Positions 2,283-30,350 of a DNA stretch of 64,000 nt are shown piece by piece. Made by a program: the position numbers and the translations under genes. The notes below the pieces were generated by a model. That model saw only the letters and a program-made list of their open reading frames with translations, was not told the origin of the DNA and searched no databases. Origin of the DNA: Mycetohabitans endofungorum. Lineage in GTDB: Bacteria > Pseudomonadota > Gammaproteobacteria > Burkholderiales > Burkholderiaceae. How positions within the stretch are numbered: position 1 is the first letter of the stretch; each line of letters opens with the position of its first letter. The stretch lies in the NCBI RefSeq assembly GCF_037477895.1, contig NZ_CP132744.1, forward strand, positions 2,232,001 through 2,296,000, in the 5' to 3' direction.

Positions 2283-3314
2283 ATGCTTATGCCACTGTCC
2301 CGTGCCATCATCGCCCGTCTCGAGCCTATGTTCTCGCGTGAATGGCAGCGCCGTGGCGTGCTCGCGTACACGCTATGGCCCTTGTCTCAGTTGTTTGCCG
2401 CCGTCTGCGCGCTGCGCCGGCTCGCGTATGCGCGCGGCTGGTGCAAGACGTGGCGCATCAGCGTACCGGTCGTGGTGGTGGGCAACGTGACGGTCGGCGG
2501 CACCGGCAAGACGCCAACCGTCATTGCGCTGATCGAGGCGTTGCGCGATGCAGGCTTCACGCCTGGCGTGGTGTCGCGCGGCTATGGCGCGCGCATCGTG
2601 CGGCCCACCGCAGTCAGCCCCGCGGCGTCGCCTGCGCTGGCGGGCGATGAGCCGCTGCTGATCGCCCGCCGCACCGGGGTGCCCGTGTGGGTCTGCCCGG
2701 ACCGAGTCGCGGCCGCCAGCGCGCTGGTGCAAGCCCATTGGGAAGTGGATGTCATCGTCAGCGACGACGGCCTGCAACACTATCGGCTCGCGCGCGACGT
2801 CGAGCTGGTGGTTTTCGATCACCGGCTAGGGGGCAACGGGTTCCTGCTGCCCGCCGGGCCGCTGCGCGAACCGCTGAGTCGCGTCCGCGACGCAACGTTG
2901 ATCAACAACCCTGACGGGCGCAGTCTGCCACCGTGGCCGTCGACTTTCGCGCTGACGCTGCAGCCCGCCGACGCCTGGCACCTGGATAATCCACACCTGC
3001 GCCGGCCGCTAGCGCAGTTCGCCGGCGAGCGCGTGCTGGCCGCTGCCGGCATCGGCGCACCGGAGCGTTTCTTCGCGACACTGCGTGCGAGCGGCCTTGT
3101 GCCCACAACACGCGCGCTGCCCGACCACTATCCTTTCGATGAGAACCCGTTCGTGACCGATACAGCCGATGCGATCCTGATCACCGAAAAGGATGCGGTA
3201 AAATGCACGGCTTGGCGTGACTCACGTCTATGGGCGGTGCCCGTCGACGCCACGCTCGACCCTCGCCTGATTGCGCTCGTTGTGGAGAAACTTCGTGGAC
3301 GCTCGCCTGCTTGA
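2283..3314 (+). CDS. lpxK: Tetraacyldisaccharide 4'-kinase
   Basis: Phosphorylates the 4' position of the lipid A disaccharide precursor in the inner membrane, the sixth step of lipid A synthesis. The start at 2283 gives 343 residues and places the membrane-associated N-terminal segment ([19 protein letters not shown]) and the P-loop GGTGKT (residues 72-77) where the family has them. An in-frame start 54 bases upstream is possible, but the extra residues look unrelated to the family. Further family motifs are [23 protein letters not shown] and ITEKDAVKC near the C-terminus. It overlaps the next gene by 20 bases, as usual in an lpxK-trm112-kdsB operon. Confidence 0.94.
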
Positions 3315-15055: not shown

Positions 15056-15112
15056 ATGAGGACGCTGTGCGCGCTCATCCTCGTGAGCGCGGTTTTAATT
15101 AGTCTGTCCTGA
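15056..15112 (+). pseudogene. Signal-peptide start of a small lipoprotein-like gene, cut by the IS5 element
   Basis: An ATG with an AAGGGG ribosome binding site 9 bases upstream opens a frame reading MRTLCALILVSAVLISLS, a classic lipoprotein or secretion signal, which then stops at a TGA inside the inverted repeat of the IS5-type element (from 15101). The natural continuation would be expected to be Gly-Cys and a short mature part, as in entericidin-type proteins; this is inference. The rest is not found on the far side of the element. Confidence 0.4.
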
Positions 15113-15138
15113 ACAATTCGCTTTGCTCTGCGGCGAAT

Positions 15139-16197
15139 TCATGCTGCTGACACCATGTGAGCCTCGCGATTGAGCAGAGCAAGCCAGATCAGGGCGCAAA
15201 AAAGCCGCAGCTTGCGCAGGATCATGCGCAGGTTGTGGCCGGCGCCGCACAGCAGCACATGAATCGCATCGCCCAGCGTACCCTTGAGCCAATTTCGATC
15301 GAGCTTGCCGTCTGACTTCATGTGTCCGATGGCCGGCTCGATTGCACTGCGACGCCGAATCATTGCTCGCAGGCCGCGCGTGATGCCGCGTCGCAAGCCG
15401 GGATGATAGAGCTTCACGCCATCGACCGCGACGCCCTTGTAGCCGCGGTCCACGACAGCCATCTGCGGCTGAACGTCGCTTAGGATCGCCGCCTGTTCCA
15501 ACGCTTCGGCCAGCGTGTGTCCATCGTAGGGATTGCCGGGCATCGAACGAGCTCCGATTACCAGACCCTCCTTGTGCGTCGTCGTGATCGACACCTTCAC
15601 GCCGAATTCGTACGGCTTGCGTGGTTTGCCTTTCGCCAAGCACTCGATTTCCGGCGCATGCAGCGCATACAGCTTGTTTTTGTCCTTGTGCTTTTGCGTG
15701 AGAATTCGCTTCGTGCGGCCAATCAGCGCTTCCAACGCCGCGCGACTTTGCTCAGCGACGCCGTCCAGCTGCCTCTGGACATCACGCATCACGCGTCCTA
15801 CTCGAGAACGCAAAGTGCGCAGCGCTTTGTTCATCCGCTTGTACTGCTTCGCATGCGCATAGCGGCCTACCTGGCTTGCCAGACGCGGCGCCTCGCGATT
15901 GTAATTTTGCCGCAGCTTCAGCCTGTGCCGGGCGGCCGCTTTTACCAGATGTTCCCGGCAACGCTCGAGCAGACGCGAGTCGGTAGGATGCGCAATCGCC
16001 TTTTCCATCACCGTCGTATCGACGATCAAGCGCTTCAGGCTCGAAGTCTTGATGACGTTCGCGCGTTTGGCCGCTTCGATCGTCTCGGCCAACAGTTCTT
16101 CAACGCCGGCTTCGCCTAGCCGCTTGCGCCAGCGCGTCAGGCTCGACGGATCAATCGGCGGCTTCGTCTGCAAGTACGTCTGGCCGGTGAACACCTG
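15139..16197 (-). CDS. IS5-family transposase, exon 2 (C-terminal 352 residues)
   Basis: DDE-type transposase. Exon 2 starts Gln-Val-Phe-Thr-Gly-Gln (QVFTGQTYLQTKPPIDPSSL), continues with IVDTTVMEKAIAHPTDSRLL, the second catalytic region YDGHTLAEALEQ...AVVDRGYKG, and the final IEPAIGHMKSDGKLDRNWLKG. Joined to exon 1 (18112-18375) it makes 440 residues, normal for this transposase group. Taken alone, the frame runs on upstream into the intron without a legitimate start, so an intact enzyme requires intron splicing. Confidence 0.88.
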   Translation of the reverse strand, partial: QVFTGQTYLQTKPPIDPSSLTRWRKRLGEAGVEELLAETIEAAKRANVIKTSSLKRLIVDTTVMEKAIAHPTDSRLLERCREHLVKAAARHRLKLRQNYNREAPRLASQVGRYAHAKQYKRMNKALRTLRSRVGRVMRDVQRQLDGVAEQSRAALEALIGRTKRILTQKHKDKNKLYALHAPEIECLAKGKPRKPYEFGVKVSITTTHKEGLVIGARSMPGNPYDGHTLAEALEQAAILSDVQPQMAVVDRGYKGVAVDGVKLYHPGLRRGITRGLRAMIRRRSAIEPAIGHMKSDGKLDRNWLKGTLGDAIHVLLCGAGHNLRMILRKLRLFCALIWLALLNREAHMVSAA

Positions 16198-16237
16198 ATT
16201 GCGGTAGGAATACCCGTTACCCGATACCCCCCGCTTA

Positions 16238-16270
16238 GATCCGAACGTGCCCAATTCAGGCATTCGGCTC
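16238..16270 (-). ncRNA. Domain V of the group II intron
   Basis: The minus strand reads GAGCCGAATGC, a short loop region, then GCACGTTCGGATC, forming the 33-34 base hairpin that is the catalytic core of group II introns. A domain VI-like hairpin with the 3' splice site follows (16198-16237). The maturase stop codon falls inside domain V. Confidence 0.8.
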
Positions 16271-17749
16271 CCACCTCGGGTGATTGACGGCAAATCGGCG
16301 ATCTGGCCAGTTATGAAGAATCTGCGGTTGAGGTAACCACTCGTCTGCCAGACGCTCAATACGCTGCCACGTCATCGTGTCCTTCTGACTGCGCCGCCGG
16401 AGCGTGCGCCGCCAGATATTCATAATGCCGTGCCTGAACGCACGCAACGCCCGGATATTGGTCGGAACGGCATGGTATGCAAAGTAGCCCCGAACGATCT
16501 GCGCCAGCCAGCGCCCTTGTGAGGCGATCGGCTCATGCATTCGCAAGCGCATTTGCTCCTTGACCTGCTTAAGCTTGGCGCGCAGCCGGTCCTTACGGCT
16601 TTTGCGCTTGAGTTGGAAGCTGCCGTTGCGTGACGTCCCACTGATGTGAGTGAAACCCAGATAAGCAAACGTCTGCGGCTTGCCCATGCCCTTACGCCTT
16701 CGCCGCTCGGCGGCATACCGACCAAACTCCAGCACACGAGTCTTCTCCGGATGCAGCGTGAGGTCGAACTCCTCCATGCGTTGCCGCAGCTCCTTCATCA
16801 GCCGCAGCGCATCTGCTTCGTGCTGGAAGCCCACCACCGTATCGTCCGCATATCGCGACACCACCACCGTGCCACGGGCTCGCTGACGCCGCCACCGTTC
16901 TATCCACAAATCAAAGACATAGTGCAGATAGATATTGGCCAGTAATGGGGAGATCACCGAACCCTGGGGCGTACCGGCCTGTACCGACATCAACCGGCCA
17001 TTGTCCAGCACCCCAGCATCGAGCCATTTGCCGATCAGGCGAATGACTCTCGGGTCCGCCACCCGGTGCTTCACGAAACGGATCAACCATTGCCTGTTGA
17101 CGGTGTCGAAAAAGCTTCGAATGTCGGCATCCAGAATCCAGTTTACCGGTCGCCACTGAATCGCTGCAGCCAATGCATCGAGTGCATCATGCTGGTTACG
17201 ACCCGGACGAAATCCATACGAGAAGCCGAGGAAGTCTTCCTCATAAATGGCGTTTAGAACCTCAACCATTACGCTCTGCACAAGCTTGTCTTCCAGCGCA
17301 GCGACACCCAAGGGCCTGAGACCTGCGTCTGCCTTGGGTATATAACGTCGCAGCACTGGCAGGGCACGGTAGCTCCCTGTATGAACCCGCCTGTGCAGGT
17401 CCCGGAGATTGCTCCCCAGTCCCACTTCATAGCTTTGCCACGTCACACCATCGACTCCCGGTGTTGCCTTACGTTTGAGCGCATAGAATGCAGCGCTCAG
17501 CCGCTCGACTGTGACGTGGTGCAGCAACGTCGTGAAACGCATCTTCTTATGCTGTCTCGCCAACTGCCGTACGCGATCCAGTCCCTGTGACACGCTTGCC
17601 CGGTTCTGTGCCCGGCACGTGTGATTCTGGTTCGCGTTCCCCTCGGTCCCCGCCCTTGGCTCCACCCACTCCGCAGCCGGTTTCCCGACCTTGTTCGCAG
17701 GTTTCTTCGCTACTACGGCGGAGTCTGACTTCTCACGTCCGTGCATCAT
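16256..17749 (-). CDS. ltrA: Group II intron reverse transcriptase-maturase
   Basis: A 497-residue intron-encoded protein that helps the intron RNA fold and splice and copies it into DNA during mobility. Reverse transcriptase motifs are in order: KRKATPGVDGVTW, RRYIPKADAGLRPLGV, YGFRPGRNQHDAL, DADIRSFFDTV, AGTPQGSVISPLLANIYLH (core GTPQGSVISPLL) and the catalytic YADD at residues 300-303. A maturase region follows (REF-like segment around RGYFAYHAVPTN). No H-N-H endonuclease domain is present. The ATG at 17749 has GAGGAG 9 bases upstream. The C-terminus, NHPRWEPNA, is encoded by the start of domain V. Confidence 0.93.
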   Translation of the reverse strand: MMHGREKSDSAVVAKKPANKVGKPAAEWVEPRAGTEGNANQNHTCRAQNRASVSQGLDRVRQLARQHKKMRFTTLLHHVTVERLSAAFYALKRKATPGVDGVTWQSYEVGLGSNLRDLHRRVHTGSYRALPVLRRYIPKADAGLRPLGVAALEDKLVQSVMVEVLNAIYEEDFLGFSYGFRPGRNQHDALDALAAAIQWRPVNWILDADIRSFFDTVNRQWLIRFVKHRVADPRVIRLIGKWLDAGVLDNGRLMSVQAGTPQGSVISPLLANIYLHYVFDLWIERWRRQRARGTVVVSRYADDTVVGFQHEADALRLMKELRQRMEEFDLTLHPEKTRVLEFGRYAAERRRRKGMGKPQTFAYLGFTHISGTSRNGSFQLKRKSRKDRLRAKLKQVKEQMRLRMHEPIASQGRWLAQIVRGYFAYHAVPTNIRALRAFRHGIMNIWRRTLRRRSQKDTMTWQRIERLADEWLPQPQILHNWPDRRFAVNHPRWEPNA

Positions 17750-18111
17750 CGGCTTCGGCTCCTCGCCTTCCCGACGCGGGCCTGGCCAGTACCGCTACAA
17801 CGCCAGGTCAGACGTGAGATCTCCCGGTTCCCGTGCAAGGCGCTTGCGTGCATGCCAGGTTCTACGACCACGCCGGATCGGCAGGCACTCGCGATGTCGC
17901 GCCCGCTCGTATTGCCTTCCACGTACTGGAGCGCGTCGGCATCCGGGATATCAACCATTTCGTGGCTCCATGGCTGGCCTGCACGTTCCCCTGCCGACGC
18001 TTCGCTGACCTCCTCACGGATGCCCGCGCACGGCTCGGGGGCAATGTGGCTCGCTATGCCTTCATCGTAGTGGACTCTCACCACCTACACCTTGCCGGTC
18101 TCCCGGCGCAC

Positions 18112-18375
18112 CCAGTACGGATTTTCCAGCCATTGCCAGACCACATCCTCGTCCGACAGGTCGAACGCATGCTGCAAGTACAGCAACCCCGCGATCAAAC
18201 GCGGCGACGTTGCCGGCCGGCCGCGGTGCGACACGAAGCTCGCGCTCATCGCCGTGCTCAATCGGTCCCAATCAATCAGATCGGCCAGACGAACCAATGG
18301 ATGCTTTAAGTTGATCTGCTCGCGCAGCGGCTGACGGAATAAATCCCTCTCTGGCACCAGCGTCTTCGGACCCAT
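18112..18375 (-). CDS. IS5-family transposase, exon 1 (N-terminal 88 residues)
   Basis: Starts MGPKTLVPERDLF and contains HPLVRLADLIDWDRL and GLLYLQHAFDLSDEDVVWQW, the N-terminal domain of IS5-type transposases, ending with ENPYW at the intron boundary. The frame then continues a few codons into the intron to a stop, giving a useless truncated product if unspliced. Together with exon 2 it forms a complete 440-residue protein. Confidence 0.88.
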
Positions 18376-18498
18376 TCAACCCTCGTCGAAATTTGCAGGA
18401 AATTCACACCAATATGCCTGTCTCTTGCAATTCCCACAACACCGTTTCAGCTGCCCAGCCTTGCTGCATCAGCCTGGACGGATTGTTCAGGTCAGACT

Positions 18499-18961
18499 AG
18501 ATAGCTTGCGCCATATTGGAACTCAAATTAATGCACTGGATTAGGCCATCCGTCGCGTGGCTCAAGCAAGTCCGGTCTGCCGACGCTTGATGACCGTGCC
18601 CGGCGTGGGCTCGCTGACTGCAGTGGCGTTTGCATCGGCCGTTGATAATCCTGAGCGCTTCTCAAGCGTGCGTGACATTGGCCCCTACCTGGGGCTGACG
18701 CCGACGAAATATCAATCCGGCAATGTCGATCGTAACGCAGGCATTTCGAAGGCAGGATGTCGGCTTACGCGCCATCTACTGTTCGAAGCGGCGTCCTCTC
18801 TCATCTCCCGATACCGGCAAAACTGCGATCTGAGACGATGGGCACTGACGCTTATTCCTCGCATTGGCGCTCGCAAGGCGATGGTCGCCACCGCGCGCAA
18901 ATTAGCGACCGTACTGCTTTCTATGTGGAAGGGGCAAACAGACTTTAAGGCGATCAGATAG
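18499..18961 (+). pseudogene. IS110-family transposase fragment (C-terminal part)
   Basis: The frame gives RRLMTVPGVGSLTAVAFASA, then GPYLGLTPTKYQSGNVDRN and KAGCRLTRHLLFEAA: the C-terminal Transposase_20 domain of IS110 enzymes with its helix-hairpin-helix motif. The N-terminal DEDD catalytic half is missing, as the sequence starts at the right edge of the IS5 element. A TAG at 18542-18544 interrupts an otherwise family-like run (NALD-stop-AIRRVA), probably a CAG to TAG change. It cannot make an active transposase. Confidence 0.85.
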
Positions 18962-19426: not shown

Positions 19427-20079
19427 TGTGCGATTCACAGACATCGTTTCACTTTTTAGAGGGCCGTTTTCGTGGCGTGTTGGAACTTGCATCTCCTATC
19501 GGCGCCACGAGTTCTAACACGCGCCGGCGATATGTAGCAAGGGTCTTGTCGAGTCGCCATTCGCGGCGTTGGACGCGCTCTTTCAGTTCGTTGTAGGCAC
19601 CAACTACCTCTTCCGAGAGGGGTGTCAGTTCGCCCAGTTCTGCTATGCGATCGACGGGCGTTTTGCCACCGAGTGATCCGTGCGGGCGGCGCCAGTTATA
19701 GTCGAGGTGCCACTGTTCAATTTGCTCCTCGATCGCGCCTTCGGTCAGTTCTCTTTGCTCATGCAATCACAGCTCATTCTGGATCCGCCGCGCGCCTTTG
19801 TGCTCGGCACGCAGTCGGAGGATCGTTGCTCGATCGCTCTCAGAAACCTTCTGGTTTGGACTTCGGTGTGGACGGCGGCTTTGGGATTGGAGACCTGCTT
19901 CGCCGGCTTGCTGATAGCGGCGTAGCCATTTGCGAAGTGTCGGTCGAGAGATGCCACACCGCGCACACACGAGGCCGGCAACGCCGGCCTCGTAATACAT
20001 GTGCACCCAACGTAATCGCGCGGCGATCTCTCGGTCCATCGTCTCATTTTAGTTGAAACGATGTCTGTGAATCGCACAG
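19427..20079 (-). mobile_element. Internally deleted IS481-type element with 7-bp target duplication
   Basis: 653 bp bounded by perfect 25-bp inverted repeats (19427-19451 and 20055-20079, outer bases TGTGCGATTC). The 7-bp sequence GCTCACG stands on both sides (19420-19426 and 20080-20086), a target-site duplication that splits the IS66 tnpC frame. The transposase inside lacks its catalytic middle (see 19449-20039), so the copy could move only with help from an intact relative. Confidence 0.88.
19449..20039 (-). pseudogene. IS481-type transposase with central deletion and nonsense codon
   Basis: The first part (20039-19770) is the N-terminal helix-turn-helix region: CARCGISRPTLRKWLRRYQQ and AEHKGARRIQNEL. 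A TGA follows, then in the same frame HEQRELTEGAIEEQIEQWHL and YNWRRPHGSLGGKTPVDRI, the extreme C-terminal part of the integrase domain. About 150-200 residues including the catalytic DDE residues are missing between them, so the product cannot be active. Confidence 0.85.
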
Positions 20080-20825: not shown

Positions 20826-23800
20826 TCAACGCAACGTAAATGGATTAATCTTGAACGGCTCAATCCACTGACCTCGGTTCGGCACAATGACTTGCTGCGC
20901 TCCGCCAGGCATCGTTACCATTCCCTGCGAAGTTCCCGCAACTTCCGATACAAACACATTCGGCGCAATGCCCGCTTTGGGCGTAATAGCGTAGTAATCC
21001 ACGCCCTTACCCATCATGTTAGCCGCTTGGGTTGCCGGTAAACCCAAAATCTGGCCCGCTTGTTCAGGTGTCATCGTTGCGATTGCGCGTGCTTGCTCGG
21101 GACTCAACCAGTAACCACTGTACGGTGAGATACTATCGCCCTTTGGCACCACCTTCACCAACATCGCACCAGGTGCTGCCGTCCCCATTTGAGGCAAATT
21201 CGCGCCCGATCTCATGTAACGTTGAGCAATTGTCTCAATATCCACCTTGGGCATATTCGGGTTTCCCATCCGAATCTCCTGCATCAATGCTTGCGCTTGG
21301 GGTGATTGCATCATCTCTGGCGGCATTTTAACGCCATCGGTCATGAAATCTTTATAACTAGCCGCGCTCAGCTTGTTCAACGCCGCCGCCCGGTCAGTAA
21401 TGGCGTTCACCACCGCTCCCGCCGTCACTGCACTGCCCAATCCCAATCCCGCTTCAAGCAGACTTGCCGCACCCGGCGACAATCCAAGCCCCGTCAACGC
21501 CTGGTTCAAATAGGTCGATTCCGGCTGCCCTGACACCGTCTGCTTCGCGCCCGCTATCAGTACATCTGCACTCGTACCCGCCACAAATGCATTCGCCACG
21601 CAGCCAAGGCCTGTCGTACACGTTATCGGCGCACTCGCTACTGCTCCGGCAACACCCATCGCACCCAATGTCGCTTGCGCTGCCCCCGCACCCCGAGACG
21701 TGAACTGATACGTGTTGTTCCACTGTTTCGCAGCATCGATATTCGCGTCACTGAATAAGCCCGACGTCGTATAACCGAACAGGCCGTCTTGTTGCGAAAG
21801 TATCCGGCGTTCATCGGCCAACGCATCGCTCGCACCGAATTCCGCGATTTGCTTGAAATGCTGATAGGCCGCACTGTCCTCTGGGTATTCCGCATAGCAT
21901 TTCGCCATCGCACAGGCTGCTGCCGCCAGCCGAGCTTCTTTAACTTCGTCTTTTCCTGCGAGTTCTCTGATACGCTGCTTCTCTTCTAGATGCAACTGCC
22001 GATTGAACCGATCGACGTTGTACGCCGCCTGCGCACCCTGCGTTCCCCCAACCACGCCCCCCGCCACGCTCGACATCACATTCGCCACAATGTTGCCCAG
22101 CGTCTTGTCCAAGTCCGCGTTGCCGGTCGGCTTCTGGTCCGCAATCTGCCGGCTCACCGCATCAAGCTTATTCGCCAGCAACGCCGATACCAACGACCCC
22201 GCGCCACTTTGCGCCGCCCCCAACAGCCCTCCACCAATGCCTCCCACCAGCGAGCCGCCCGCGCTCTGCAGGCCAACACGGTAGCGCCCGCTCTCATCCC
22301 ATTGCTCCGCTTCAGCCAAATACTGTTGCTTCTGTTGCGGATCGTCGCTCTCGCTAGCCGCCTGGAGCAAAGCGTCTCGCTTGGCATCCGCCACGTCCCC
22401 GATCCGCCGCGCAACCGCCTCGCCGGCGTCACGCATCGCGCTCATCAGCTCACCCTGATTCTGCAAGCTCTGCTGGACGTCCGGCGTCTTGTCCACCCGA
22501 CCGTTCAGATTCGTCGCATCGCGGTTCAGCCCCGCGATAGCCTGCTTTTGTTGATCAGGGTTCGTGATCTCGATCTCAGCAGCGCTGATCGCGCTTTGCG
22601 TACGGGCACGACTGCTGCCGCTTTCACTCAGATACAGCGGCGACGCCCCCCCGGCATTCTTGCCCGAGCTCGATCCGGTCGGCTGATACACATTGCCGCC
22701 GTCGCCTGTCGTCGCGCCACCACTGATGCCCAAGGTGCTTGCCTGGTAATCCGAGTGGTTCTCAATCGCCGAATAGCTCAGCGTGCCGGTCTTCAAGCGA
22801 TTCTGCGCTTTCGCCGCCTCGCTTGCAATATACGCCCCCTTCAGATCGGTGTTGCCCTTCACGGCAATGTCAAAACCGCCTTCGCCAGCCTCGATCCCCG
22901 CTTGCTCGGTAACGCTCGCGTAATTGCCACGCGCGTTGCCGTTCTGCACGTTGAAACTGGCACTGCCCCCGCCCTGGCTCACGTTCAGCCCGACGCCCGC
23001 GCTATGCTGGTGCGCCGCACTTACGCTGGTGTCCTGGACGCTCGCCACATTCAGGTCGCCCTGCACGTCGGCGACCACCCGATTGCCCTTCACGTTCGCG
23101 CCCACAACGTTCGTATCGCCACCGCTCTTAATCGTCACGCTCTCGCGTGCGCGAACGTGCGTGTTGTTCTGCATCGCCCCGTCCGAGTTGCCGTCGCCGT
23201 TGGCACGCGCGGCCGACGCCGACACGCCAAGCCCCTTCGTGCCAATCGATACGCCGACGCTGCCGCTTGTCGAGCCATTGTCGTGACGCACACGCTCGGT
23301 GTCGGTGCTGTTGCGCAGATCGACCCGATCGGTGGCCGCAAGGTGGACGTTTTGCGCATCAATCTGCGAGCCGTGAATGATCACGTTCCCTTGGCCTGGG
23401 TCCTTCTCGCCCGTTGCCTGGAATTTTGTGAGCCCGCCTGCCTGCACACGATTGCCGCGCGCCTGCGTACTGTCCTCGCTGAACGCTGAGCGGCTGCCGG
23501 ACGAGCCGATACTCACCGTCAGCTTCGCTTCGGGCATCTCGCCCTTGGCCAGCGTGCCTAATTCGCCCGGCACTGACTGGTACGCATCGTACAGGCCACT
23601 GGCCCCGGCTAGCCCGCGCAGCGCCCGTACCCGATCGTCTTGACTGTGGGCACCCGCGCTGGCCTGCTGTACCACATTATTCACCGCTGCGATGCCCGGC
23701 GTTTGAACCCCGAGCGTCACGCCGCTTTGCCGCATCGCCTGTTGTCCGCTATGGTGCTGTTCATCAGTCGCAGTCTGCAGCGTCACCGTCTTCGCCGTGC

Positions 23801-26800
23801 CCACCACGTCCTTCGCGGCGATGAGGTCGCTGCCTTTCACGTGCAACTCGTTGCCCACCTCGATCGTCACGCCATCCTTGACCGAACCGACCACGCTGCC
23901 GTGATGCGTGAGCGACGAGGATTGCGCCTGGTCCGATTGCGCGCGCGAGCCAATCGTCACGGCCAGCCCGTCTCCGGATAGCAGGCCCGATTCCTTCTTG
24001 TCGTAGTAGGTCGACGACTGTACCCTGTCCTGCGAGGTCGTCATGTTGACATCGCGGCCCGCCTGCAACTTCACATCATTCGTGCCGACCACATGGCTGC
24101 CCGTGATATTGATGTCCCGGCCACTTGCCACCGTCACGCCGTCGGCTGAAATCGTGCTGCTTTGACTGTAGACCGCCGTCCGGTCAATACCGCTCGCGGC
24201 CTGGGATCCGCTCACGACATTGCTGTGGCTATGCGTCTCGTGCGAATTCAACACGTGCGTTTCAGTCACCGCGCCCACGTTCACGTCTGCGGCCGCCAGC
24301 AGGTTCGCACGGCCCTTGTCCAGACTGATCGCACTGCCGCTGACCGTGATGTCCTGACCCGACACGATATTGACGGTATTGCCGCCCTTGAGTGTCGTAC
24401 CCGTGAGTGTCTGATTCAACGTATGCAGCGTCTCCGCATAGCTGCCATGACTGTCGCTGCCCGAACTGTTACTGTTCGTGGTCGTTGTCGCGCTCGCCGA
24501 GCCGAGTGACACGTCCCCCTTGGCGACAAGGTTGCCGCCTTGCCCGAGGTCGATCTGCGCACCCTTCGCCGTGAGGTCGCCGCCAACGTTGATATTGGAC
24601 ATACCGCCGACCTTGAGCGAGCTGCCGACAATACGGTTGATGTCCGTGTTCGATACACCATTCGCACGCTGTACGATTTTGTGCTCGCCGATCTGCTGCG
24701 CGCCGAGCGTCCAGTGACCACCGATATCGGTATTGAGATCGCCGCCAACCACAAGATTGCCCGCATGCTGCTGGACATCCCCACCAGTCACGATGCTCGC
24801 GTCACCCGCCACCTCCAATTTCGCGGTCGGTCCCAGCCTCGTCGTGACACGCGTCGCGCCGTCACGGCTCACCTGGTGCGTCGTCTTCGTCGCGGTATCA
24901 AGAACCAGATCTTTCCCCGCATCCAGTTGCAGGCTGCCGGCCTTCACGTTGGCCGACGTCAGGTCGATCTTGCCCTCGGTCGTGAGCGACATCAAGTCGC
25001 CGCTTTGCAGCACGCCAAACGCGTTGTCGATTTGCTTGCCCTGAATGGCGAGCGTATGCTCTGCCTTGACGGTGCCGCTGTTCGTGAACGACTGCACATT
25101 TTGCAGATCGATATTTGTCGCGGTAATCAGCGGGCCGTCCATGTTTTGCTGGCTAGCCTTCGCCAGATACACGACCGGCACTAAAACCGACTGACCGTCG
25201 ACCACGCGCGTCTCCATCATCACCACGTTGCCCGTCAGCTTCGACACCTGTTCGGCTGACAAGCTCACGCCAATCGGCAAATCAAGCGACTTGGACAACT
25301 CGGCACCGGCGGCCATCAGGGATTGGTACATTGACTGCACATTCGTGTGCGGACCGAGCACCGCCTTGCCCGTGAGCGCCGTAACCTGATTGCGCACCAG
25401 TTGCTGTTCGTAGAACCCATCGCCGAGACGTTTCGCGAGGGGCGTCAGATCGACGCCGATCTGCTTGAAGAAGTAATCGCTCGAAATGAAATGCTTGTGG
25501 TTCGTGAACGCGGGGTTCGTCTCGATCACATAGCTTGGGTTTGGTGCGGGATTCGGTCTGAACAACCCGCCTTGCGGAATCGTCAAGTTGTTCAGCACGT
25601 TTAGCGCCGTGGCACTCGCGATGATTGGATCGACGATCGTCGATACGCTGCCCCGTACTGGCATCCCCGGCAATTCCGTCCCGCTCACATTGCCGTTGAG
25701 CGAGCTGATCTCCGGCCCTGACACCGACTGGCCGGGGGGCAGGCCGAGCGACGGAATCGATGGGTTGCTCGTCGGGTTGTTGATGCTCACGCCCGTGCCG
25801 GAAATCGTGCCGTTGGCCCCCCAGGTCGCGTCGTAACCCGGCAGCCTGTAATCTTTGATGTCGGCAGGTGCCGCTTGCGTATAGCCTCCCGGACGGCCAG
25901 TGACGAACGGCGCATCGCCAAACGGCAACTGCCAGTTGTGTTCACTGTTGTCGTAGTTGTTGTAATGATACTGCCCCGAGTACCTCACTCTGACCATCGG
26001 CGCCTGCTGGCCGGTGGCGGCCCAACCATCCATGTCCAGGTGAGTGGGTTGCTGGATATCGCCGGCTGCCGCCACATTGCTCCAATAGTTTTGCAGCAGG
26101 CCGACTGCCGACGCGTCGAGGGCTCCACCCGAAATGATTTGTCCGGCTGGGCTGATGTCCGTCACAGTGTTTGCGACCGCCTTGCCCTCGTAGGTCGTGT
26201 ACTGATATCCGCTGTTCCACTGACCGCCTTGCGGCGGCTCGATGAATGCGCCGCCAATCATGTGCGTCATGTCCGGCCTGGGCATGGGGGGCCAAGGGAC
26301 ATTGTGACCGTAGCAGGCCTCCATATAAATCGCAGTGCAGCCTTGCATGCTGATGTTGTGTCGCGCTAGCAAGGCCGGGTCAACGTTTTCGGTGAAGCCC
26401 GAGGTCCTCATCACGCGGCGCGTGTTCAAGACCCTGTCGGCATGCAACTGCATTGGGCCACCGGACTCGATCCGCGCGGACTGGTTGTTGATCAGTGCAG
26501 CTCTCGTGTAGTGACCATTGGCATCCTTGCCCCCGGCCAACACGATCTTGCCCATGCCGACGATTCCCGTTTGTGCCATCGTGTCAATGGCCGTCGTGTC
26601 GTCGCGGTTCTCGATGTCGCGCGCGAGAATTTCCAGCAGGCCTTGGCTATCCGAGGCGCCCATCAGCGCCGTCGGCCCCAGATTGGACACCGTACCGTGC
26701 GCCTGAATCGTCGCACTGCCTCCAACCAGCGTTCCGGTATTGGTCAGATTGCCCGAATGCGTACGGAGCCAATTAACCGCCGAGATCGAACCAGAGTTGA

Positions 26801-29800
26801 CGATATTGCCTGCATTGACGCTCAGATTAGGGACCCATTGCAGGTTCGCGTGGTTCGTGAACGTGCCCGGCAACGTGAAGGTCAAGCCGTGACCGACCTT
26901 GAACTGCGTGTCGGAAGCTATCGTGTAATCGCCTTGCAGATGCAACGTTGCATCGTTGGCCGCGCCGTATGTGCCGCCGCCTTGCAGCGTGGCCGCCGCT
27001 ACCGTCAGGTTGCGCGTCGAGCTAATCAAGCCATCCGTGTTCGTCACTGCGCCAGTCATTGTCACGTCCACGTCGCCGTTAGAGTTGGCGAGATTGCCGA
27101 TTTTGCCGCCACGATTGTCCAGCGTGGCCCCTTGAACGTGGAGCGTCGCGCCGCTCAGTTGGCCACCTTGCGCGTTGACAATCGACGCCGCACTTACCGT
27201 CACATCGCCGTTGCCCGTAATCTTGCCCATGCTGGCAACACCGCCCGCATGACTGTTGACGATTTGGTTTGTACCTTGCACAGTCATGTTGCCCGTGCCG
27301 AGATCGTTGATCGAACCGTCAGTATTGTCGATCGACGCGGATTGAATCTCGAGCGTACTCGTATCGCCGGACGTCGGTTGGCCCGCCTGAATATGGCCGG
27401 CCTGGTTCACGAGCGCGCCTTCATTCGTCAATGACAGGGACATGTCCGAGCGCAGCAATCCTTGCGTATTATTGACATCGCCCTTGATCGTAGCAATGAT
27501 GCCGCGCTGGGCCGACACGACCCCTTGTACGTTGCTTAGGTCGCCGGCTTCAATAAGCACCTGGCCCGTGCTTTCGATCCGGCCCGATGTGTTGTTCAGC
27601 CGGCCTGCGCTGTGACTTGGCGCCACCGTCAGCGTCCCTGTGCCGACATGCGTAATCGTGCCCCCTGAATTGATCAGCTCAGCGGGAGCGAGCGTTAGCT
27701 CATGGCTGTTGGTCTTGAGCGTGCCGTCGTTCGAGTTGTCGATCTTGCCACTTACCTCAACGGTCATCGGCAACGCTTGCCATTGCGTGATTTTGCCGCC
27801 GCGGTTCGTAAGGTCCGCCGCCTTCAATGCAAGCTGGTTAGCTTCGATCGTCCCTTCGTCGTTATCCAGCGTTGAATCGACCGTCAGGCTTAAATGGGGT
27901 GCGCCGATCGAACCACTGTGATTCGACAGCGTGGTGCTATGAAGGATCGCCGCCCCCGCGCTTGTCTTCAATGTGCCGTTGTCGTTCGTCAACGTGCCGC
28001 CGAGCGTCGCGGTGAGTCCGGTTTGGCCGACCAGGGACCCCGACGTATTGTTGAAGGTGTTCGTTTGGACGACGATCTGGCCGTTGCTGTCGATCTTACC
28101 ACTGACGTTCGAAATCGAGCCTGTGCCATTGCCGAGCGTAAGCGTGCCGTTGCCTGCGTGATAAAGCGTACCGCCGTCATTAATCAACGCCGCGGGGGCA
28201 AGTTTCAGATCCGTGCTGTTGGTCTTGAGCGTGCCGTCGTTCGAGTTGTCGAGCGTTCCGCTAACGTTGACGGCGATCGGATCGCTTCCGGTCTGCGTTA
28301 TGGAGCCGCCGCGATTGAGCAAGTCGGTCCCGTTCAACGACAACCGATCTGCCTGTACGGTCCCGAAACGATTGTCCAGCGTCGTTCCGTTCAATGTGGC
28401 CGCCTGTCCTACGATCGTGCCGCCGGCATTATAAAGACGCGAACCCGCATCGACCGTGACGTTCTGAGCGGCCTTCAGCAGTCCGTTGCCATTGTCAACA
28501 AACTGCTGTCCGATCACGCGCAGATTCGCCGTGGTCGACATCGTGCCGTGATTGGCGACAATTCCTCCTTGCACCGTCACGTCGCCGTTGCCACTAATCA
28601 CACCGCCTTGCGCGCCGTTCGCCGCCGTGCCCGCTGTGTTCGTCAACTGGCCGCTCGTCGTGACGGATAGGCTGTCGCGGTTGAGCGACGTCACCCGACC
28701 GCCAGAATTGTCCAGCGATGCGCCGTCGATAGTCATGTGGCTGGCGCTCTCGATGATGCCTTGCTGGTTCAAGATTGCACCGCCGTGCACCTCGACCGTA
28801 CTTTGCGACAGCAGCTCGCCGCTCTGATTGGCAACTTGTCCGCCTGTCTTTACTAATAGCGGACCTTGCGCCGAGACTTTGCCGCTTTGGTTCGACACGC
28901 TGCCGCCCATCAGCGTCATGTCCGCGTCACTCGACAGCTTGCCGTGATCGTTAATTAATGCGCCCGATGCGGTCGCCTTGATCCCGCCTTGCGCGCTCGC
29001 TGTCGCGGCCGATAGATTTAAGTCGCCCGCGTTGGCGTTCAACGTCAGGCCGCCATTTGCGATGGTAAGGCTACCGGCAAGATTCACGTTGCTGCCCGTC
29101 AGGGACACGTTGTTGCCGGCCAGGGACACGTCGCTACCCGTCAGAGGCACGTCACTGCCCGTTAGGGGCACGTTGCTGCCTGCGCCGTGCTTGCCGGTCA
29201 CGCTCAACAGCCCCGTCGCCGTCACTTGCAGGTCGCCGGATTGGCCCATTGAGCCGTCGCCATTCACGCCCGCGCCGAGCGTACCAGTCGAATGGACGCT
29301 GCCGGCGTTCACCGTGACATCCTTCTGGGCCGTCAGCATTCCGCTGTGGACGAGGTCAGCGCCCGTATTCACAGACAGGTACTGTCGGCTATCGATCGTA
29401 CCGCGATTGTCGATCCCGCCAGCGGCCGACAGCCCGATATTGCCGCTCGCCTGCGTCTTGCCCGTCAACACCAGGCGGCCTTCGCTCGTCAACGTCAAAT
29501 CACCGGCCTGCGCGCTAATCGTACCCGCGCTGTGCACTCCCACACCGTGTTCGGTGCCGACCATCACGATCCGATCGGCGTACATACCGCCAAGTTGGCC
29601 AACGTCAATCGATACGCTTGGCGCCGGCCCGTCGCCTTGAATGGTCGTGGCCGCTAGCGTAGCGTAAGGCACTTGGTTCGCACCGCTCACCACGTTCAAG
29701 TTTTTGGCGCGAATTTCGGTGTTCACCTGCACCGCGCGTGCGATCAGGTCCACTTGATCGATGTTCAACGCATTAAACTTTGCACCATGCACAGTCACCA

Positions 29801-30350
29801 GCCCACGCGACACATTGAAGCCGGCTAGCGAGCCGTCTGCGCCATAGTACGGTTGTCCGGTCGTCAGCGTCGCCCGGCTCGTGTTGATAAAGCCCCCGCC
29901 GTTCACGATAATGCCCGACGGATTAGCGACCACCACCTCAGCGCGCGGACCGGCCACCTCCACAGGGCCACGCAGCTGGCTTGCTTCTAGACTATGAACC
30001 TCGTTGACGATGAGGCGCGCCGACTGATTCGGGCCGAAGTGCGGATTGCCGTTGATATAGCCTGCTCGATCCGTTTTAACAATCGCCGAAGCATTGTTTA
30101 GGATCGCGCCGGGCGCTTGGACGTCGAACTGATGGTAGTGATTGACCGACACGCCTGCCCCGGACGGCCGGGCAATATCGACCTGCGGCAAACCATTTTG
30201 CGTTTGGATGACTCGCGTCTCGCCCCCAGGAGCCGGCACGATTTGCGCAAGTCCACACGCTGGCCACGCGCTTAGCCAGAGCGCCACGAAGCGGGCGCGG
30301 CCCACACGCCACACCGGCTCAACACCCACTAGAATCCAACGCGTTGCCAT
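20826..30350 (-). CDS. cdiA: CdiA/FhaB-like two-partner secretion exoprotein with C-terminal toxin candidate
   Basis: A 3,174-residue surface exoprotein. Residues 1-36 form a signal peptide ending GLAQ. The TPS secretion domain follows (about 37-290), with NPHF at 102-105 and NPSGI at 143-147. Residues about 300-1300 are filamentous-haemagglutinin repeats (NRGG, DNSNDGTLKTN). Around 1310-1650 lies a non-repeat, aromatic- and Cys-containing region (CTAIYMEAC near 1336) that corresponds in place to the receptor-binding region of known CdiA. Haemagglutinin repeats of the second type run from about 1800 to 2550. The pretoxin part ends at AAYNVDRFNRQLH (to 2787), and the last 390 residues are the candidate delivered module, with two hydrophobic stretches (AGAVASAPITC, GLGLGSAVTAGAVVNAI) and a distinct 114-residue tail from 3061. 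Its enzymatic activity is not recognised. An immunity candidate follows directly; the transporter gene is divergent. Confidence 0.85.
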   Translation of the reverse strand: MATRWILVGVEPVWRVGRARFVALWLSAWPACGLAQIVPAPGGETRVIQTQNGLPQVDIARPSGAGVSVNHYHQFDVQAPGAILNNASAIVKTDRAGYINGNPHFGPNQSARLIVNEVHSLEASQLRGPVEVAGPRAEVVVANPSGIIVNGGGFINTSRATLTTGQPYYGADGSLAGFNVSRGLVTVHGAKFNALNIDQVDLIARAVQVNTEIRAKNLNVVSGANQVPYATLAATTIQGDGPAPSVSIDVGQLGGMYADRIVMVGTEHGVGVHSAGTISAQAGDLTLTSEGRLVLTGKTQASGNIGLSAAGGIDNRGTIDSRQYLSVNTGADLVHSGMLTAQKDVTVNAGSVHSTGTLGAGVNGDGSMGQSGDLQVTATGLLSVTGKHGAGSNVPLTGSDVPLTGSDVSLAGNNVSLTGSNVNLAGSLTIANGGLTLNANAGDLNLSAATASAQGGIKATASGALINDHGKLSSDADMTLMGGSVSNQSGKVSAQGPLLVKTGGQVANQSGELLSQSTVEVHGGAILNQQGIIESASHMTIDGASLDNSGGRVTSLNRDSLSVTTSGQLTNTAGTAANGAQGGVISGNGDVTVQGGIVANHGTMSTTANLRVIGQQFVDNGNGLLKAAQNVTVDAGSRLYNAGGTIVGQAATLNGTTLDNRFGTVQADRLSLNGTDLLNRGGSITQTGSDPIAVNVSGTLDNSNDGTLKTNSTDLKLAPAALINDGGTLYHAGNGTLTLGNGTGSISNVSGKIDSNGQIVVQTNTFNNTSGSLVGQTGLTATLGGTLTNDNGTLKTSAGAAILHSTTLSNHSGSIGAPHLSLTVDSTLDNDEGTIEANQLALKAADLTNRGGKITQWQALPMTVEVSGKIDNSNDGTLKTNSHELTLAPAELINSGGTITHVGTGTLTVAPSHSAGRLNNTSGRIESTGQVLIEAGDLSNVQGVVSAQRGIIATIKGDVNNTQGLLRSDMSLSLTNEGALVNQAGHIQAGQPTSGDTSTLEIQSASIDNTDGSINDLGTGNMTVQGTNQIVNSHAGGVASMGKITGNGDVTVSAASIVNAQGGQLSGATLHVQGATLDNRGGKIGNLANSNGDVDVTMTGAVTNTDGLISSTRNLTVAAATLQGGGTYGAANDATLHLQGDYTIASDTQFKVGHGLTFTLPGTFTNHANLQWVPNLSVNAGNIVNSGSISAVNWLRTHSGNLTNTGTLVGGSATIQAHGTVSNLGPTALMGASDSQGLLEILARDIENRDDTTAIDTMAQTGIVGMGKIVLAGGKDANGHYTRAALINNQSARIESGGPMQLHADRVLNTRRVMRTSGFTENVDPALLARHNISMQGCTAIYMEACYGHNVPWPPMPRPDMTHMIGGAFIEPPQGGQWNSGYQYTTYEGKAVANTVTDISPAGQIISGGALDASAVGLLQNYWSNVAAAGDIQQPTHLDMDGWAATGQQAPMVRVRYSGQYHYNNYDNSEHNWQLPFGDAPFVTGRPGGYTQAAPADIKDYRLPGYDATWGANGTISGTGVSINNPTSNPSIPSLGLPPGQSVSGPEISSLNGNVSGTELPGMPVRGSVSTIVDPIIASATALNVLNNLTIPQGGLFRPNPAPNPSYVIETNPAFTNHKHFISSDYFFKQIGVDLTPLAKRLGDGFYEQQLVRNQVTALTGKAVLGPHTNVQSMYQSLMAAGAELSKSLDLPIGVSLSAEQVSKLTGNVVMMETRVVDGQSVLVPVVYLAKASQQNMDGPLITATNIDLQNVQSFTNSGTVKAEHTLAIQGKQIDNAFGVLQSGDLMSLTTEGKIDLTSANVKAGSLQLDAGKDLVLDTATKTTHQVSRDGATRVTTRLGPTAKLEVAGDASIVTGGDVQQHAGNLVVGGDLNTDIGGHWTLGAQQIGEHKIVQRANGVSNTDINRIVGSSLKVGGMSNINVGGDLTAKGAQIDLGQGGNLVAKGDVSLGSASATTTTNSNSSGSDSHGSYAETLHTLNQTLTGTTLKGGNTVNIVSGQDITVSGSAISLDKGRANLLAAADVNVGAVTETHVLNSHETHSHSNVVSGSQAASGIDRTAVYSQSSTISADGVTVASGRDINITGSHVVGTNDVKLQAGRDVNMTTSQDRVQSSTYYDKKESGLLSGDGLAVTIGSRAQSDQAQSSSLTHHGSVVGSVKDGVTIEVGNELHVKGSDLIAAKDVVGTAKTVTLQTATDEQHHSGQQAMRQSGVTLGVQTPGIAAVNNVVQQASAGAHSQDDRVRALRGLAGASGLYDAYQSVPGELGTLAKGEMPEAKLTVSIGSSGSRSAFSEDSTQARGNRVQAGGLTKFQATGEKDPGQGNVIIHGSQIDAQNVHLAATDRVDLRNSTDTERVRHDNGSTSGSVGVSIGTKGLGVSASAARANGDGNSDGAMQNNTHVRARESVTIKSGGDTNVVGANVKGNRVVADVQGDLNVASVQDTSVSAAHQHSAGVGLNVSQGGGSASFNVQNGNARGNYASVTEQAGIEAGEGGFDIAVKGNTDLKGAYIASEAAKAQNRLKTGTLSYSAIENHSDYQASTLGISGGATTGDGGNVYQPTGSSSGKNAGGASPLYLSESGSSRARTQSAISAAEIEITNPDQQKQAIAGLNRDATNLNGRVDKTPDVQQSLQNQGELMSAMRDAGEAVARRIGDVADAKRDALLQAASESDDPQQKQQYLAEAEQWDESGRYRVGLQSAGGSLVGGIGGGLLGAAQSGAGSLVSALLANKLDAVSRQIADQKPTGNADLDKTLGNIVANVMSSVAGGVVGGTQGAQAAYNVDRFNRQLHLEEKQRIRELAGKDEVKEARLAAAACAMAKCYAEYPEDSAAYQHFKQIAEFGASDALADERRILSQQDGLFGYTTSGLFSDANIDAAKQWNNTYQFTSRGAGAAQATLGAMGVAGAVASAPITCTTGLGCVANAFVAGTSADVLIAGAKQTVSGQPESTYLNQALTGLGLSPGAASLLEAGLGLGSAVTAGAVVNAITDRAAALNKLSAASYKDFMTDGVKMPPEMMQSPQAQALMQEIRMGNPNMPKVDIETIAQRYMRSGANLPQMGTAAPGAMLVKVVPKGDSISPYSGYWLSPEQARAIATMTPEQAGQILGLPATQAANMMGKGVDYYAITPKAGIAPNVFVSEVAGTSQGMVTMPGGAQQVIVPNRGQWIEPFKINPFTLR
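29085..29180 (-). repeat. 21-bp tandem repeats inside the cdiA-like gene
   Basis: Four full units and one partial unit of 21 bp encode a seven-residue repeat of the form Leu-Thr-Gly-Ser-(Asn/Asp)-Val-(Pro/Ser/Asn) near residues 390-422. The length keeps the frame, so copy-number change would lengthen or shorten the stalk. Confidence 0.85.

Follow-up and report, generated by a model that had tools for sequence, protein, structure and literature searches.

A group II intron at a conserved codon boundary of IS5-family transposase genes in Mycetohabitans and other genera

An IS5-type transposase gene on the minus strand of the window, i.e. of the whole 64,000-nt stretch of DNA that was analysed, is interrupted by a group II intron that encodes its own maturase. 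As claimed in an earlier note on this DNA, and confirmed here by matches of both exons to the IS5_1 profile of NCBIfam (NF033578, cut-off 275), the gene is split into 88 and 352 codons. The 5' exon (88 codons, 18112..18375) scores 107 bits and the 3' exon (352 codons and a stop codon, 15139..16197) 421 bits, and they cover adjoining profile positions, 2-80 and 81-418, respectively. The 3' exon includes motifs that we take to be of the DDE type, by comparison with those of IS5 transposases. The intron-bearing insertion sequence (IS), also on the minus strand, extends over 15102..18497 and is 3,396 nt long, or 1,482 nt without the intron, which matches the 1,482-1,483 nt of its empty relatives. 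Its terminal inverted repeats of 21 nt (15100-15120 and 18479-18499) are 90% complementary. No matching target-site duplication was found at the window IS; the flanks are unequal (TATCTA and TAATTA), and the left one has matches in four of the eight genomes of the genus that were searched.

The surroundings are rich in insertion sequences, with fragments of IS110 and IS481 transposases at 18557-18961 and 19767-20039 beside the loaded IS, and further along the minus strand (20826-30350) lies a gene for a filamentous haemagglutinin-type protein of 3,174 aa. The genome of 3.55 Mb is contained in two contigs, and the source fields of the sequence records place Mycetohabitans inside Rhizopus.

The intron, on the minus strand, begins with GTGCG at 18111, ends with CGCAAT at 16198 and comprises 1,914 nt, as defined by Rfam, by the same ends in close relatives and by an empty site; the boundaries, length and ends given in the earlier note are thus correct, on that strand. 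The domain I region (Rfam D1D4-6, RF02005) was found at 17858..18078 on the minus strand with 182.6 bits (E 4.9e-54, gathering 49), and domains V-VI (RF00029) at 16198-16272 with 38.4 bits (E 1.3e-4), just below the gathering value of 40. Domain V, as supported by the RF00029 match and by covariation, occupies 16237..16271 (minus strand) with the catalytic triad AGC at 16267-16269; the previously claimed position was 16238-16270. Domain VI (16200..16235, minus strand) contains a bulged A at 16205, which from its position is presumed to be the branch point. For a selected set of 24 related introns, standard pairs make up 98.4% of the 672 cells in the helices of domains V-VI, and both sides have changed in 14 of the 28 pairs, values that were reached by none of 500 shuffles. 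The covariance-model check proposed in the earlier note gave domain I and domains V-VI, while domains II and III were not individually assigned. The arrangement of an intron within a transposase gene is without doubt real and beyond chance.

An intronless copy of the transposase gene (L112) is present in the same genome at G000:C1:1166487-1167806. Its protein is 94% and 99% identical to the products of the 5' and 3' exons of the window gene, and its DNA is 94.3% identical to the window IS over 388 nt on the 5' side and 99.1% over 1,097 nt on the 3' side. In L112, the 5' exon extends up to position 3251 and the 3' exon starts at 3252, exact to the base, and hence insertion of the intron was precise. 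Next to the junction the two copies differ by third-position changes only, in the last four 5' codons, so that the deviation at the junction of intronless relatives, named earlier as a possible refutation, is not seen in this copy. Splicing would restore an uninterrupted frame of 440 codons, like that of L112, as had been predicted. The exact rejoining of codons was, however, rejected as a proof of splicing, since any clean insertion of an intron gives an exact join. The unequal flanks, together with the unequal identity of its two parts to L112, indicate that the window IS has probably rearranged by recombination with another IS copy. Only one full copy of the intron is present in the genome, and thus recent homing within it is not seen.

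The maturase, a predicted reverse transcriptase of 497 aa (16256..17749, minus strand), has an intact frame with YADD in the translation and matches the RVT_1 profile with 134.9 bits and TIGR04416 with 340.9 bits (curated cut-off 300). Among solved structures, its sequence best matches reverse transcriptases of group II introns and related enzymes, with the GsI-IIC reverse transcriptase at the top. No endonuclease domain was found in a Pfam search with E up to 10, which returned, besides RVT_1, only a low-scoring match to GIIM (7.9 bits). The stop codon of the maturase, at 16256-16258, is indeed located inside domain V, a feature that had been described as a compact layout. It is one of several positions in the intron family, as judged by a survey of 64 introns with a length of 1,800 nt or more, 60 of which contain a long frame. 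The frame ends 73-83 nt before the sequence end in 23 of the 60, the common 73-nt class corresponding to the first base of domain V, 51-58 nt before the end in 19, and 16-19 nt before it, inside domain VI, in 11; the remaining seven frames are truncated or irregular. Termination in Glu-Pro-x-Ala inside domain V, as in the window intron, was observed in 14 of the 60. The layout with the stop codon in domain V is therefore common to close relatives and variable across the family. In the 11 relatives with the latest frame end, the maturase frame crosses the whole of domain V, and protein and catalytic RNA share the sequence.

Target recognition was investigated by a blind covariation scan, in which 79 distinct introns were aligned over their first 340 nt and each intron position was compared with each exon offset. 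The set was obtained from 87 introns by removal of duplicates, and introns whose alignment fell short of the first 3 nt, including the Pseudomonas group, were left out. About 3,600 registers were compared with a control consisting of the exons of other introns; the contrast is conservative, as exons of related introns are among the controls. The best register joined intron positions 183-188 to exon positions -1 to -6, with 5.61 of 6 bases paired versus 2.85 in the control. In the window it corresponds to EBS1 (CCAGTACG, 17922..17929, minus strand), which pairs over 8 bp with IBS1 (CGTACTGG, 18112..18119, minus strand) at the end of the 5' exon, where the Pro-Tyr-Trp codons finish. A second, independent register connected intron positions 155-160 with exon positions -7 to -12 (4.24 of 6 paired versus 2.57). 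The EBS2 region (TGGTTG) is found at 17952..17957 on the minus strand, and its GGTT (17953-17956) can pair with AATC in the 5' exon, one of the pairs being G-U, although at ~4 bp this pairing is weak for the window intron. At the top of the single-base scan of 63 introns, intron position 247 was paired with exon position +1 at a frequency of 0.98 versus 0.51 expected; in the window, this is EBS3 (G, 17865, minus strand) opposite the C at 16197, with which the 3' exon begins. By position and behaviour, the three covarying registers are EBS1, EBS2 and EBS3. In one relative (L150), EBS1 is altered to match the TATTGG spelling of the same codons. Assignment of the intron to class C (IIC), the members of which have no EBS2, was considered and rejected, because the site lies inside a coding gene and the EBS2 register covaries.

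Intron DNA matches of some kind, mostly distant or short, were detected in 69 of 398 sampled Burkholderiaceae genomes, the window's included. Nineteen plasmid records matched the intron, at least 80% of it in seven of them, and the plasmid pBRH01 of M. rhizoxinica HKI 454 contains the intron at 356996-358908. The best 80 of 137 candidate stretches with maturase relatives in genome contigs were kept. Among the loci fetched that retain 500 nt or more of the intron at no less than 88% identity, the insertion follows Pro-Tyr-Trp in an IS5 transposase at every 5' junction that was read. These are the window and L105, L106, L107, L110, L025, L026, L108 and L109, as well as L116, L119, L150 and L111; the last, on pBRH02, is truncated and has a frameshift beside the junction. 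Thus, the same codon boundary is filled in IS5 copies of Mycetohabitans, Paraburkholderia and Burkholderia by introns that are 88-99% identical. L031, where an IS5 5' exon lies immediately upstream of the intron, and L116 probably represent one locus; L118 is without a readable 5' end, and L129 is an intron piece of 141 nt with 89% identity and another flank. A distant branch, ~70% identical, occupies the same codon boundary of another IS5-like transposase in Microvirga (L039, L040, L052), and a truncated copy at 76-77% identity (L158) is preceded by Val-Tyr-Trp codons. The remaining relatives with flanks read are inserted at other sites.

When genomes of the phylum (398) and of the order (399) were searched for the junction pattern, an exact match was obtained in the window only. 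With the window counted in both, the pattern was matched in four and three genomes, respectively, and the reversed pattern in five and three. The four places with one mismatch have no maturase match within 1.5 kb on each side and look like chance matches.

A quick tree was constructed from intron DNA without domain I, using 44 rows of a set of 68 from which introns aligned over less than 1,450 nt had been left out. The IS5 branches of Burkholderiaceae and Microvirga are separate in it, which corresponds to two changes of target. Joining them costs 25.6 log units, and as the AU test gave p 0.053, one origin of the IS5 target is not rejected. It is a tentative possibility, somewhat less likely than not, that unrelated group II introns have independently made IS5 transposase genes a common landing ground, the two branches at the same Pro-Tyr-Trp|Gln boundary and a third, different intron elsewhere in the gene. 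In that case, the slowest-changing codons of a fast-moving parasite would be the permanent address of the introns, which could keep the parasite in check.

The relative age of intron and IS was assessed from synonymous divergence among the six Burkholderiaceae copies with complete introns (the window, L105, L106, L025, L108 and L109). In all 15 pairs, which share branches and are therefore non-independent, the maturase dS (0.01-0.22) was lower than the transposase dS (0.31-1.35; 303-418 codons, fewer for damaged copies), with none of 300 bootstraps against this in any pair. Synonymous divergence of the introns is thus ~5- to 100-fold lower than that of the surrounding transposase. Between L108 and L109, there are seven differences in 1,914 nt of intron and 3-8 per 30 nt outside, with a transposase dS of 1.1. 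The introns on two plasmids of Microvirga sp. VF16 (L039 and L040) are identical over 1,914 nt, yet the transposase dS is 0.6 (163 codons). Compared with these two, L052 has a maturase dS of 0.11 and a 3' exon dS of 0.40-0.48; one G is missing at its junction and the 5' exon looks damaged, so only the 3' exon was compared. The dS values between the window and Microvirga are saturated and uninformative. Different constraint could explain part of the low maturase dS but hardly the 5- to 100-fold gap or the identity over 1,914 nt. Hence, the intron most likely entered IS copies that had already diverged, on its own.

The edges of the intron bear on how it was gained. In 15 of 16 pairs (the 15 above and L039/L040), the nearest 30-nt exon bins on both sides differ, and such a jump in mismatches at the intron edges fits retrohoming into diverged targets. 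That the intron passed from one IS copy to another by gene conversion or homologous recombination, and not by reverse splicing, is highly improbable, as conversion tracts should extend into the exons and as the exon-binding sites follow the exon across 79 introns. IS copies do recombine, as seen from the unequal flanks of the window IS and from the different identities of its two parts to L112, and the window/L105 pair is exceptional in having one and zero mismatches in the 30-nt bins beside the intron. Exon-guided recombination fits, at most, this exception.

The earlier note had regarded the intron, if it splices, as carried along by the IS, one mobile element riding on another; however, the divergence in the 15 pairs points to an intron that moves by itself. 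That an IS loaded once has spread the intron by transposition, splicing keeping it mobile, is accordingly rather unlikely. In five of the ten copies with both exons read (the window, L106, L025, L108 and L039), each transposase piece is an open frame of normal length and the motifs are present, as would suit such a vehicle. Two of the four loaded copies with both IS ends, L106 (TACATA) and L025 (TAACTG), have perfect 6-bp target-site duplications, whereas no match between the flanks was found for the window copy or L109. The duplications indicate that the IS in L106 and L025 arrived by transposition, before or after gain of the intron. Duplications of 6 bp also flank three of four empty copies (L112, L132 and L136, but not L142). 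Transport by the IS does not predict the mismatch jump at the intron edges, and no two of the loaded copies compared are at clearly different loci with near-identical exons, the introns being more alike than the exons. The sole near-identical loaded pair, L107 and L110 (5' exon 99.5%), shares the same IS110 neighbour and is apparently one locus in two strains. Transport of the intron by the IS is nevertheless possible.

The evidence therefore favours a mobile group II intron specialised in IS5-family transposase genes, which, as the sequences suggest, has very probably spread by retrohoming into a conserved stretch of codons. Spliced lariat RNA together with the maturase would reverse-splice into the DNA for the Asn-Pro-Tyr-Trp|Gln stretch of IS5 transposases, the target being chosen by pairing of EBS1, EBS2 and EBS3 with IBS1, IBS2 and IBS3, and the intron would then be copied into place. 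As no endonuclease domain was found, it is proposed that copying is primed probably from the replication fork. The host genomes would supply a stock of targets in their IS5 copies. Passive carriage of the intron by the IS may also occur, and with exact splicing some level of transposase production would be possible. Points against retrohoming are the EBS2-IBS2 pairing of only ~4 bp in the window, the single full copy and the conversion-compatible exon bins of the window/L105 pair. The single copy, the lack of a target-site duplication and the score of domains V-VI below the gathering value would also suit a dead remnant, with intron and IS both being relics. This is very unlikely given the intact maturase frame with YADD, the conserved pairs of domains V-VI, the perfectly paired EBS1, the transposase motifs and the presence of both inverted repeats.

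A similar system is known in Sinorhizobium meliloti, in which RmInt1 homes to the transposase gene of ISRm2011-2 (PMC4238363, PMC5894124). According to these papers, RmInt1 is a IIB3/class D intron and likewise occurs in closely related IS elements; less than 1% of exons are correctly spliced in its host, and it is regarded as limiting its IS. It is described as endonuclease-less in PMC8914252. Like RmInt1, the window intron is a probably mobile group II intron in which no endonuclease domain was found and whose target lies in an IS transposase gene, and it is also more alike between copies than the surrounding IS, at one fixed site. It differs in that its host IS is of the IS5 type, versus IS630 for RmInt1, and in that its filled codon is common to IS copies of several genera. 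RmInt2, a second intron of the same bacterium, has another IS, ISRm17, as its target, the inverted repeats being recognised (PMC5894124), and not a transposase codon as for the window intron. Group IIC introns at terminators and attC sites are also endonuclease-less but choose structural motifs (PMC4424553), in contrast to the base-paired homing site in coding sequence that the window intron appears to follow. On sequence grounds, the case resembles RmInt1 in kind, with a different IS family as host. No description of this intron was found in the open-licence literature among the matches listed.

By analogy, the intron might act as a brake, silencing its host IS by poor splicing as proposed for RmInt1, for which the splicing level given in PMC4238363 is the precedent. 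Five of the ten loaded transposases are damaged (L107, L109, L040 and L052) or, as in L105, open with a protein end that departs from the others and no IS end found, but undamaged loaded transposases exist too, and a brake is possible without being quite probable. It concerns the effect on the host IS and does not conflict with retrohoming.

If retrohoming into this site is correct, the intron would recognise, at the DNA level, a motif that is conserved in the protein. The IS5 copies would form a natural record of a selfish RNA tracking another selfish element across genera, in which the pace of change of intron and host is comparable at a single locus. Related genomes that have the site with and without the intron would provide material on how far introns restrain the spread of an IS, and the RmInt1 precedent would be widened to the IS5 family. 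The repeated use of one codon and a transposase gene with two introns appear to be the noteworthy parts.

The latter gene is that of L107 in pBRH01 of M. rhizoxinica HKI 454, where a second, different group II intron (L107:6482-8684) is inserted ~568 nt into the 3' exon. Rfam D1D4-7 matches it with 108.9 bits and domains V-VI with 58.9 bits, and its maturase is 30% identical to that of the window intron. The same second-intron junction occurs in L143 and L139 of that genome, without the first intron, and the window genome gave only two short, weak matches to the second intron.

Related introns occupy other kinds of site. One lineage (L120, L159, L160, L162 and L164) directly borders a palindrome, for example CTGTATATTTATACAG, that appears to resemble a LexA/SOS box; intron insertion at a LexA/SOS-like palindrome was not found in the open-licence literature among the matches listed. 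A sister lineage is located directly after an apparent stop codon, in the context Arg-His-x-Phe-stop | intron, in L027, L117, L123, L127 and L152 and also in L153, L154, L155, L161 and L167, and EBS1 fits in those tabulated. The genes before these introns are presumably of the porin type, as judged by the C-terminal motif.
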